A stretch of 64,000 bases of DNA from contig JADQCB010000002.1 of assembly GCA_016278325.1 (NCBI GenBank), positions 124,001 to 188,000 of the forward strand, given 5' to 3'. Shown in pieces: positions 2,750 through 25,241 of the stretch. The notes under the pieces are model-generated. The model did not search any database. It was not told the DNA's origin and saw nothing but the letters and a program-made list of their open reading frames with translations. The position numbers were made by a program, and so were the translations under genes. This DNA is from Actibacterium sp. Lineage in GTDB: Bacteria; Pseudomonadota; Alphaproteobacteria; Rhodobacterales; Rhodobacteraceae. Numbering within the stretch: position 1 is the first letter of the stretch; each line of letters opens with the position of its first letter.

Positions 2750-3835
2750 TCAGCCGCGGTGGATCAGCGAGGCAAAGAGCTGCGGATCGAGGCTGTCCGC
2801 GGCGAAGGTTTCGCCCTCGTAGAGCAGCGACACGGCATCGTGGCTGTGCAGGCTTTCCTGGTGGCTGGCAACGACCCGGAAATCGCCGATGCGCGGGTCT
2901 GCATCCAGATATTCGCAGAAGAGCCGTGCGGCATCCTCGACGAAAATCGGATTGGCGGCGTTGAGCTCGGCGAAGGCCTGTTCGTCCTCGCGCTTGACCA
3001 TCACCTGGGTTTCGGTGGGCACCGCTGTGCGGCAAAGTTCGATCAGGTCCTCGAACCACAGGCAGCCGCTGCCCGGCACCAGTTCGACCGAGATCCGCGC
3101 GACCGAGCGTTGCGCATGCGGCGTGGCCATCTGGCCGCGGGCATTGCGGGCATGTTCGGCCAGTTCCAGCGAGCAGGGACAGGTCGATGAATAGACATAG
3201 TCGAGATGCATGATCTTCTTGCGCACGCCGTCGCGTTCGACCAGCTCCAGGGCGATATCGTAATATTGATAGCCTTCGAGGCCCGAGCGCAGCGAGGAAA
3301 GCTTCACCGGAAAGGAAAAGCGCATCTGGATGCGCGCATCGAAGCTGTCGAGATGGCGCTTGTAGTCGTCCAGCGCCGCGTCGATGACGTCGAAGCTGAA
3401 GGCACGCTCGGCATGGGCATAAAAGCTGCGCATGATGCGCGACATGTTGATGCCCTTCTTCTCGGCCTCCAGGCTGACGGTGCCGGTGACCGAGGTTTCC
3501 AGCGTCAGATCCCCGTTGTCGCGCGTGTGGTATTTCAAGGGAAGCCGGAAATTCGAGATGCCCACATGCTGGATCGCCTGCCGCGCGCCGCGAATCAGGC
3601 TGGACGGTCCGTTCTGCAGATCCGGCAGGGACGCCTTGTAGGCGGCATCGACGGCAAAACCGGCCGGATAGTCCCGGCTGAGCGCCGGGCCGTTGGCCCC
3701 CGGGGCCAGCAGCCGTGCCAGGGCCGGGTCCAGCGCCGCGATCTCGTCCGCCCCGGCCGTGGCCGCCCAGCGTGCAAGTGTGTCGAGCGCCTTGCGCGCC
3801 TCGGCGCGATCCGGTTGCGGCTTGTGCAGGTTCAT
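2750..3835 (-). CDS. folE2: GTP cyclohydrolase FolE2 (type IB)
   Basis: Converts GTP to 7,8-dihydroneopterin triphosphate, the first step of folate (and queuosine) synthesis, using the metal-flexible FolE2 enzyme rather than the zinc enzyme FolE. The 361 residues match the family in length and in the conserved STCPCS segment, which carries the catalytic cysteine. Other family stretches are QHVGISNFR near residue 89, FSFPVKLSSLRSGLEGYQYYD, and SHQESLHSHDA near the C-terminus. A GGGAGG ribosome-binding site precedes the ATG. FolE2 is Zur-controlled in some bacteria, but no Zur-like palindrome was seen upstream here. Other folate genes (folK, folC) are elsewhere in the window, not linked. Confidence 0.95.
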   Translation of the reverse strand: MNLHKPQPDRAEARKALDTLARWAATAGADEIAALDPALARLLAPGANGPALSRDYPAGFAVDAAYKASLPDLQNGPSSLIRGARQAIQHVGISNFRLPLKYHTRDNGDLTLETSVTGTVSLEAEKKGINMSRIMRSFYAHAERAFSFDVIDAALDDYKRHLDSFDARIQMRFSFPVKLSSLRSGLEGYQYYDIALELVERDGVRKKIMHLDYVYSSTCPCSLELAEHARNARGQMATPHAQRSVARISVELVPGSGCLWFEDLIELCRTAVPTETQVMVKREDEQAFAELNAANPIFVEDAARLFCEYLDADPRIGDFRVVASHQESLHSHDAVSLLYEGETFAADSLDPQLFASLIHRG

Positions 3836-5161: not shown

Positions 5162-5177
5162 TGGCGGGCAACCCGAA

Positions 5178-5233
5178 CCTCTTTAGCGGCTTGTTTAACG
5201 TGGCCCGCAATCCGGTACAAAGCGCCACGTTCC
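5178..5233 (-). ncRNA. SAM-II riboswitch (metA-type aptamer) upstream of metZ
   Basis: On the minus strand an 8-bp stem AACGTGGC/GCCACGTT (5231-5224 with 5204-5197) encloses CGCTTTGTACCGGATTGC. It is followed by the conserved single-stranded tail TTAAACAAGCCGCTAAAG, which forms the pseudoknot in SAM-II. This matches the published SAM-II layout: a P1 stem, a loop with TTTG..CCG..TTGC, then TTAAA..AAG..GCTAAA. It lies directly ahead of metZ, the gene class this riboswitch controls in alphaproteobacteria. S-adenosylmethionine binding would lower metZ expression. A covariance-model search (Rfam SAM-II) would settle the boundaries. Confidence 0.9.
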
Positions 5234-5234
5234 C

Positions 5235-5263
5235 CGCTTATCGCGGCGGCCATTTAGCGTCAA
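5235..5263 (-). promoter_or_regulatory. Possible metZ promoter
   Basis: On the minus strand TTGACG (5263-5258) is followed 17 bases later by TAAGCG (5240-5235), just ahead of the SAM-II aptamer. The predicted start would fall at or just inside the first stem, so the -10 may instead be GATAAG two bases upstream. Confidence 0.35.
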
Positions 5264-23180: not shown

Positions 23181-24083
23181 TCAGGCCAGGCGATCGGGCA
23201 GCGCGATGCCGCGCAGGAAGTCCTCCGCCGCCATCGGGCGGCGGCCCGGGCGTTGCAGCACAAGCAGGTCGACCGCGCCGCTGCCGCAGGCGACCACCAG
23301 CCCGCCCAGCACCGCGCCCGGCGCGCCCTTGCCGGCCACGACGCGGGAGCGCAACAGTTTCACCCGTTCGTCGCCGATCCGGCACCACGCCCCGGGCACC
23401 GGCGACAAGCCGCGGATCAGCCGGTCCACCTCGATTGCCGGTCGGCGCCAGTCCACCCGAGTTTCGGCCTTGTCGATCTTGGCGGCATAGCGCACGCCGT
23501 CCTCGGGCTGGGGCTGCGGCGTCAGGCTGTCGAGCCGCGACAGGGTCTCGACGATCAGCCTTGCGCCCAGCGCCGACAGCCGCTCATGCAGCGCGCCCGT
23601 CGTGTCTTGCGCGCCGATCTCCACCGCCTCGCTCAGCAGAACCGGGCCGGTGTCCAGCCCGGCCTCCATCCGCATGATACTAACCCCCGTCTTCCGGTCC
23701 CCGGCCATGATCGCGCGCTGGATCGGCGCCGCCCCGCGCCAGCGCGGCAGCAGCGAGGCATGGATATTCAGGCACCCGTGCTTCGGCGCATCGAGAACCG
23801 GCTGCGGCAGGATCAGCCCGTAGGCCACGACCACCGCCACGTCGGCATCGAGCGCGGCGAACGCGGTCTGTTCCTTTGCGTCGCGCAGCGTCTGGGGATG
23901 GCGCACGGGCAGCCCCAGCGCCTCGGCCCGCGCCTGCACTGGTGCCGCGCGCGCGCGTTTGCCACGGCCGGCGGGGCGCGGCGGCTGGCAATAGACGCAG
24001 GCGATCTCGTGCCCGGCATCGACCAGCGCATCCAGCGCAGGCACCGAAAACGCCGGCGTTCCCATGAAAACGATCCGCATCAT
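23181..24083 (-). CDS. fmt: Methionyl-tRNA formyltransferase
   Basis: Formylates initiator Met-tRNA using 10-formyltetrahydrofolate. The 300 residues start [20 protein letters not shown]. The catalytic segment is [20 protein letters not shown] and the [13 protein letters not shown] loop follows. A C-terminal OB-like domain ends at LPDRLA. The ATG overlaps the stop of the upstream deformylase-like gene, keeping formylation and deformylation genes in one transcript. Confidence 0.97.
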
Positions 24084-24577
24084 CGCCTCTGCAATTTGCC
24101 GGCGCGTTTGAGCAGCCGGTCGCGCCGGAGTTTCGACAGGCGGTCGAAATACATCTTTCCGTCGAGATGGTCGATCTGGTGCTGCACGCTGGTCGCCCAG
24201 AGATCGACGAAATCGCGCTCCTCGACCGCGCCGTCGGAGGACATGAAACGCACGGTGGCCGCGCGCGGCCGGTCGATGGCCGCGGCCACGCCGGGCAGGT
24301 TCGGGCTTGCCTCTTCATGCCGCCGCAGCCTCGCGGAGGCGTGCAGGATTTCGGGATTGGCGATGCGCACCGCCTGCCCCCGTTCGAGCGAGCAATCCAC
24401 CACCGCCAGACGCAGTGGCACCCCGATCTGCGGCGCAGCCAGGCCATAGCCCGGCATCGCGTCCATGGTTTCGACCATGTCGTCCCAGATCGCGCGGATT
24501 TCGTCACTGATCGCCTCGACCGGGGCGGCGGGGCGGCACAGGCGCGGATCGGGCCAGGGCAGGACGGGCCGGATCAT
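24080..24577 (-). CDS. Peptide deformylase paralogue with altered catalytic motifs
   Basis: A deformylase-fold protein of 165 residues. Motif 1 is intact ([10 protein letters not shown], 43-52). Motif 2, normally EGCLS with the metal-binding cysteine, reads EASPN, with Ser91 at the Cys position. Motif 3, normally HEIDH, reads HQIDH (133-137), with Gln134 replacing the catalytic Glu. Both histidine ligands remain. A deformylase lacking the Cys ligand and the Glu is expected to be inactive or to do something else; this is inference from the known mechanism. It is coupled to fmt downstream and to a 49-codon remnant upstream, each by 4 bases. Confidence 0.85.
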
Positions 24578-24723
24578 GCAGTATATCCGTCGATCGCCGC
24601 GCGCCGCGCGGGCCCGCGCCGGTGGTCGGTGCGCAGCGTCCCGTCCAGGTGATCGCGCACATGCCGGGCGCAGGCGGCGCGCAACCGCGCATGGCGATGG
24701 CGCAGGATCGCCCGTCCGGTCAT
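24574..24723 (-). pseudogene. 49-codon deformylase-like remnant between two def genes
   Basis: An intact short frame, ATG at 24723 to TGA at 24574. It overlaps the stop of def and the start of the deformylase-like gene, ATGA at both ends. Residues 18-30 read CARHVRDHLDGTL, which lines up with CVQHEIDHLDGKL of the neighbouring def: Cys, both metal-ligand histidines (21 and 25), and LDG are kept. The catalytic Glu is Val22. The first two motifs are absent, so this looks like the tail of a third deformylase copy that lost its N-terminal two thirds. Whether the peptide is made is unknown. The clean overlaps suggest at least that translation passes through. Confidence 0.65.
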
Positions 24724-25241
24724 GCCCGGGCCCGTTCGCGTTTGAGCTTTATCATCTTGCGGGTGATCATCTGGCGGCGCAGCGGCTTGAGGTAGTCGAT
24801 GAACAGCTTGCCGTCGAGGTGGTCGATTTCATGCTGGACACAGGTCGACCACAGGCCGCTGAAATGTTCTTCGCGTTCATTGCCCTCGGGATCGATCCAG
24901 CGCACCCGCACCTCGGCCGGGCGATCCACATCGGCATATTGATCGGGGATCGACAGGCAGCCTTCCTCATAGGTGGTGACATCCTCCGAGGCCCAGACCA
25001 CCTCGGGGTTGAACAGCGCCATGGGCCGCGGCGCGGCGCCCTCTTCCTTGACGCAATCCATCACCAGCAACCGCCTCGGCACGCCGACCTGCGGCGCGGC
25101 CAGGCCGATGCCCGGCGCATGGTACATCGTTTCCAGCATGTCCCGGGCCAGCTGGCGCAACTCTTCGGTGATGTCGTCCACCGGCGCGGCCGCCTTCTTT
25201 AGACGCGGGTCGGGATGGATCAGGATCGGCAGAATGCTCAT
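24720..25241 (-). CDS. def: Peptide deformylase
   Basis: Removes the formyl group from nascent protein N-termini. The 173 residues have all three motifs intact: GIGLAAPQ, EEGCLSIP with metal-binding Cys95, and HEIDH (His137, Glu138, His141). This is the functional copy of the cluster. The start is the ATG at 25241; earlier frame extension overlaps the divergent lyase promoter. There is no Shine-Dalgarno-like sequence upstream, and a possible promoter would start the transcript within a few bases of the ATG. The order def, remnant, def-like, fmt appears to be a single operon. Confidence 0.96.
   Translation of the reverse strand: MSILPILIHPDPRLKKAAAPVDDITEELRQLARDMLETMYHAPGIGLAAPQVGVPRRLLVMDCVKEEGAAPRPMALFNPEVVWASEDVTTYEEGCLSIPDQYADVDRPAEVRVRWIDPEGNEREEHFSGLWSTCVQHEIDHLDGKLFIDYLKPLRRQMITRKMIKLKRERARA

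Follow-up and report, generated by a model that had tools for sequence, protein, structure and literature searches.

A frame of 49 codons between two deformylase genes of Actibacterium sp. almost certainly derives from a third deformylase gene, mid, that lost its interior by deletion, as judged from its alignment with the intact gene of a relative. As an overall explanation, we regard it as somewhat more probable than otherwise that the dead gene has been kept as a translational bridge; remnants like this one may be kept for handing ribosomes to the next gene, with the peptide itself being irrelevant.

The window (the whole stretch of 64,000 nucleotides that was analysed) carries the gene chain listed in Table 1, in which a 4-nt ATGA overlap occurs at every junction, i.e. 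def1/49-codon frame, 49-codon frame/def3 and def3/fmt. The frame runs from ATG to TGA with 49 sense codons, and it has the stop-start overlap with both the upstream and the downstream gene by which a translationally coupling short ORF is recognised. The initial annotation had described a frame of exactly this length, overlapping each neighbour by 4 bases and locked in a stop-start chain, and it is borne out on both points. The sole Rfam match in the window at the gathering threshold is RF00521, which is also given in Table 1.

Table 1. Positions of the features in the window.
Feature	Position	Strand	Description
def1	24720-25241	minus	Peptide deformylase with all three motifs
49-codon frame	24574-24723 (stop included)	minus	Almost certainly a remnant of the third deformylase gene mid
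Kept 5' piece	24679-24723	minus	Remnant codons 1-15, corresponding to sister mid codons 1-15
Kept 3' piece	24577-24678	minus	Remnant codons 16-49, corresponding to sister mid codons 132-165; motif III with Val
Junction of the 348-nt deletion	24678/24679	minus	Placed by alignment with sister mid
def3	24080-24577	minus	Deformylase paralogue without motif II Cys; Gln replaces motif III Glu
fmt	23181-24083	minus	Methionyl-tRNA formyltransferase; ATGA overlap with def3
ATGA overlap, def1/remnant	24720-24723	minus	def1 stop (TGA), remnant start (ATG)
ATGA overlap, remnant/def3	24574-24577	minus	Remnant stop (TGA), def3 start (ATG)
SAM-alpha riboswitch (RF00521)	5162-5238	minus	58.7 bits

Origin of the frame and its deformylase neighbours

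The within-genus comparison was made with one other Actibacterium genome (both genus genomes, 2/2, were searched). The sister locus L044, from Actibacterium sp. isolate Soudan_11, has the same def cluster, and its slot holds a full-length deformylase, mid, of 165 aa with the motifs GRGLAAPQ, EGCLS and HERDH, which likewise overlaps its neighbours by 4 nt on either side. When the slot DNA of the window is aligned with that of the sister, there is a single in-frame gap of 348 nt (116 codons), which corresponds to codons 16-131 of the sister mid; the remainder is ungapped and the other differences are substitutions. Identity to the sister mid is 33/45 bases in the kept 5' piece and 74/102 bases in the kept 3' piece, and each piece has its single best ungapped placement here among about 127,900 window positions on both strands. 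The proposal of a third deformylase copy is therefore supported by the alignment, and the full-length version looked for at the equivalent place in a relative was found in the genus sister. On the other hand, 15 N-terminal codons are kept together with 34 C-terminal ones, and therefore the remnant is not merely C-terminal, as had been supposed; both ends of the gene are joined by one in-frame deletion. A search of the window's genome with def1 at E 0.001 returned def1 and def3 and nothing else.

The motif III block of the remnant is CARHVRDHLDGTL, in which HVRDH retains both His and has Val in place of the catalytic Glu, departing from HExxH. Motif I (GxGxAAxQ) and motif II (EGCLS) are missing, and both lie within the deleted 116 codons; the translation agrees with the earlier description of all three motifs. 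The expected deformylase-like similarity held in one respect and not in another: the PF01327 profile gave E 0.039 and 14 bits, which is below the cut-off of 22.8 and leaves the frame outside the family by this measure, whereas the match to the sister's mid is a strong one (E 2.5e-7). Profile searches by themselves were rejected as proof of origin, being too weak for 49 residues, and the question was settled by the genus sister, where the end-to-end alignment with one gap and the E value point to descent from a deformylase gene.

In deformylases, the Cys of motif II binds the metal and the Glu of motif III is catalytic. It was found that def3 lacks this Cys in 78/78 copies (Ser in 77, Gly in 1) and has Gln for the Glu in 78/78 copies, while the background dN/dS values are 0.063 and 0.080, def3 being as low as def1. 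These substitutions suggest that def3, which is strongly constrained, is probably an inactive, conserved pseudo-deformylase; motifs are imperfect guides to deformylase activity (PMC12690207). In the tree, the def3 clade has support of 1.0 and the mid clade 0.997, compared with just 0.22 for def1. Our search of open-licence PMC by title and start of abstract returned no paper describing inactive or pseudo-deformylases. When 190 genomes of the class were scanned for an HQxxH pattern, it turned up in the genome that the window comes from and in 3 of 187 from other families; the frames around these three matches show no further deformylase feature. The pattern missed both other family members sampled, and therefore it says little.

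Two further observations concern the other paralogues. Seven residues beyond the motif II Cys, where E. coli has Arg97, the def1 residue is Tyr in 66/81 loci and Phe in 15/81; a Tyr there is reported to reduce the actinonin susceptibility of V. cholerae deformylases (PMC12690207). In motif I, full-length mid reads G-Arg-G in 28/28 copies and def1 has Ile or Val at the Arg position.

The slot across the family and the bridging frames

The gene order in the window and the best 80 of 392 loci, 81 loci together, is def1-mid-def3 in 29, def1-def3 in 49, def1-fmt in 2 and def1 alone in 1. An enlarged collection of 384 loci was reduced to 354 distinct ones after 4 were dropped (def1 missing or cut) and 26 merged as duplicates. 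Among these, 153 have a full mid, 129 have def1 and def3 within 10 nt (in 75 of them the stop of def1 and the start of def3 overlap directly), 29 have a def1-def3 spacer of 11-300 nt, 3 have a larger one, and in 40 def3 is out of reach, fmt being present in 34 of the 40. According to PMC12690207, deformylase genes are clustered in 98.1% of Rhodobacterales reference species and three stand together in 62.5% of these; it deals with the same gene cluster as is found in the window, and the gene orders of the 81 loci fit its figure. Partial copies, bridging frames and a paralogue that has lost active-site residues are absent from its account in the sections at hand, where the reason for the clustering is called elusive. 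A likely inactive def3 beside def and fmt bears on why Rhodobacterales cluster these genes.

The first example in relatives came from the spacers of the 81 loci. It lies in L049 (Rhodobacter sp. isolate MO_135.B1) at 3519-3581, where 20 codons of a deformylase N-terminus overlap both def1 and def3 through GTGA, in parallel to the window frame. A locus was then defined as eligible if mid is absent, a restart codon lies at the def1 stop (ATGA/GTGA/TTGA), def3 has an NTGA start and there is a spacer between them. The rule was formed on 221 distinct loci, where 4/4 eligible ones were joined by an unbroken frame against 1.09 expected (P 0.005, or 0.028 without the window). The extension brought 143 loci from 150 genomes, picked by match number (mostly one) irrespective of spacer, and the new eligible loci found after the rule was stated were joined in 6/6 cases (P 8.9e-5). 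Altogether, 10/10 eligible loci among the 354 are joined by an unbroken frame of 5-53 codons that overlaps def1 and def3 by exactly 4 nt each (P 3.8e-7). In the null both ends were fixed, the spacer was shuffled and its frame randomised, and the loci were treated as independent.

The bridges have 49 codons in the window, 15 in L026, 20 in L049, 9 in L059, 6 in L332, 5 each in L363 and L370, 28 in L394, 53 in L402 (which starts with TTG) and 18 in L440, and def1 identity among these ten loci is 66-80%. Clear deformylase pieces are found in the window, L049 and L394 (0/100 shuffles reach their score); the other 7/10 bridges have no similarity to mid above shuffles, and the peptides are mutually unrelated. 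Origin by deletion, established for the window through the sister alignment, is likely for L049 and L394 as well.

Some loci do not follow the pattern. L306 was left out of the tally, since the codon at its def1 stop shares the frame of def3 and was read as the start of that gene; if it is scored as a miss, 10/11 loci are joined (P 5e-6), or 6/7 of the new ones (P 8e-4). L088 and L262 have the restart codon, their def3 start is not NTGA, and their frames overrun that start by 11 nt. The usual restart codon is missing at the def1 stop in 16/29 spacer loci, so that coupling is dispensable in those lineages. Nine of these 16 have CTGA and serve as a control, 7 of them with an NTGA def3 start, in which the frame gives an exact link in 3/7 and overruns in 4/7. 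The contrast with the bridged loci is marginal (Fisher P 0.015 for 10/10 vs 3/7, and 0.047 for 10/11 vs 3/7). Since the frames of 9/9 CTGA loci also reach or enter def3, reaching it is in itself uninformative in GC-rich DNA; the observation that 12/12 restart frames reach def3 was dropped as evidence for this reason, and the evidence for the rule is restricted to the exact 4-nt link on both sides.

The other two junctions were evaluated with restart frames other than the next gene's own start. Between def1 and mid, 6/11 frames are exactly linked (five by 4 nt and one by 1 nt), 3/11 stop 2-26 nt short and 2/11 overrun; two of the linked frames, at 149 and 153 codons, are possibly real genes. 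Between mid and def3, 2/2 are exactly linked, one with 121 codons. The rule holds strongly between def1 and def3 and less so between def1 and mid. Short frames with 4-nt overlaps at both ends also occur where a full mid is present, namely of 41 and 12 codons in L055 and L265 (def1-mid) and of 38 codons in L033 (mid-def3).

Constraint on the peptide and competing explanations

Compared with the sister locus, the remnant has 73% DNA and 57% protein identity, while def1 has 88% and 89% and def3 has 83% and 81%. Counted by codon position (1/2/3), the remnant shows 10/14/16 differences, def1 shows 12/8/42 and def3 shows 19/16/50, and GC at codon position 2 is 0.63 in the remnant vs 0.41 in L044. 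We fitted a joint codon model to def1, def3 and the 49 codons in five taxa with shared branch lengths. The remnant dN/dS on the window branch was 0.65 (profile interval about 0.31-1.5) vs 0.16 on the other branches, with 2dlnL of 10.36 against equality and 1.20 against dN/dS of 1, by which neutrality is not rejected. The gene-by-gene fit with separate branch lengths gave 0.34, with 2dlnL of 1.07 and 2.72; both are reported and the joint fit is preferred because the separate one is underpowered. The proposed dN/dS check thus indicates that constraint on the peptide has very probably been relaxed, with a wide interval that includes neutrality.

In simulated neutral decay, the frame remained stop-free in 57-83% of runs, and it was intact in 7-28% when the start codon and frame-breaking indels were counted. 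For frame-breaking indels a rate of 0.034 per substitution was used, obtained by subtracting the rate in predicted coding DNA from that in noncoding DNA, most gaps in predicted coding DNA probably being artefacts of alignment or of draft genomes. In the neighbouring genes, too, alternative reading frames often lack a stop over 49 codons. Since neutral decay often leaves 49 codons open in GC-rich DNA, one open frame proves nothing, and the survival of the window frame by itself was rejected as evidence that selection has kept it. These results, together with a dN/dS compatible with 1, agree with a plain decaying pseudogene that is open by chance and will be lost, its overlaps being inherited and unmaintained. 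What speaks against this explanation is that 10/10 (or 10/11) eligible loci are joined when about one third or less is expected per locus, and that six of the joined loci were found after the rule had been stated. We hold it to be doubtful, with a substantial chance of being right all the same.

The 49-residue peptide might instead be a functional microprotein that acts in its own right, for instance by attaching to the ribosome or to a deformylase partner. Its frame is intact, the peptide is basic, part of the motif III residues is retained, and dN/dS values down to 0.31 lie inside the interval. However, the fold is mostly lost and two motifs are gone, GC at the second position has risen as given above with changes almost evenly spread over codon positions, and the bridges of other genera encode unrelated peptides as short as 5 codons, and we consider a microprotein improbable. 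Between the two fates that the initial annotation had left side by side, the coupling fossil is favoured over the microprotein because of the relaxed constraint and because similar bridges in relatives encode unrelated peptides. An assembly or sequencing artefact hiding a full-length mid is very improbable even though the species is represented by one draft genome of 62 contigs, because the kept ends are about threefold more diverged than def1 and def3 at codon positions 1 and 2, catalytic Glu included, a divergence that a deletion artefact would not give, and because the def1 query described earlier matched only def1 and def3 in the genome.

Translational bridging and known systems

The sequence of events that we favour is as follows. 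One in-frame deletion of 348 nt almost certainly took out the catalytic middle of mid, as the sister alignment shows. A ribosome finishing def1 would restart at the overlapping ATG of the remnant, translate the 49 codons, terminate at the second ATGA and restart on def3, and then, through the third ATGA, on fmt. The frame would persist through its role as a bridging micro-cistron, and the peptide is probably a dead product. We infer the coupling, its importance for def3 and fmt, and its being a selected trait from the architecture, the comparative statistics and published coupling experiments. Termination-reinitiation takes place at ATGA overlaps (PMC6728339), and reinitiation needs overlaps or very short distances, a distance of about 20 nt almost abolishing it, while as little as the final 15 nt of the upstream gene suffices (PMC10666635). 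A frameless spacer would therefore sever def3 and fmt from def1, and even a 5-codon bridge could maintain the link. That the frame has been kept for coupling was at first rated fairly probable; because of the outcome of the CTGA control, we now put it only a little above even.

Predicted Shine-Dalgarno strength before def3 was also compared, with medians of -3.4 in bridged loci, -3.9 in direct overlaps and -5.8 in unlinked spacers. Bridged loci do not differ from unlinked spacers (P 0.29), two bridges have strong sites, and def1's own starts are weaker still at -1.5. This contrast was left out as support for bridging, the result being mixed.

A broader possibility, which we put forward tentatively and at slightly less than even confidence, is that gene loss in an overlapped operon is channelled, so that mid deletions persist mainly if the stop-start chain stays continuous, either with the neighbours joined at an overlapping start or through a sequence-free micro-cistron of 5-53 codons. 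If this is true, many tiny "hypothetical" operon frames could be ribosome bridges and not microproteins. Their signature, 4-nt overlaps at both ends with the frame kept and the amino acids free, could aid small-ORF annotation, and the slot offers a test case for gene loss from coupled operons without silencing of the downstream genes.

Several known systems resemble the window frame in part. In the tap and repY leaders of plasmid replication genes, translation of a short frame, and not its peptide, drives the next gene; they are dedicated regulatory leaders, unlike the remnant of a decayed enzyme. The reinitiation pairs of PMC6728339 and PMC10666635 have 4-nt stop-start overlaps such as those at the ends of the remnant, and in the reporters of PMC10666635 a very short upstream coding stretch is enough; the pairs consist of working genes, whereas one member in the window is a dead remnant. 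We found no paper on gene remnants as translational couplers when open-licence PMC was searched by title and start of abstract. Short ORFs serving only ribosome delivery are reviewed in PMC12548453, including the mycobacterial MIRU elements with -4 spacing. The window frame is like a MIRU in being short and having -4 spacing to the next gene, to which it may be coupled, and its peptide may likewise be beside the point. A MIRU, however, is the insertion of a mobile repeat, whereas no such insertion at the start codon is seen in the window, where the frame aligns with the resident mid across the deletion. MIRUs arrive as mobile repeats, and bridges of the window type recur in one slot across genera. 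What differs from the known ribosome-delivering frames is the origin by deletion of a resident gene and the recurrence in one slot across genera.
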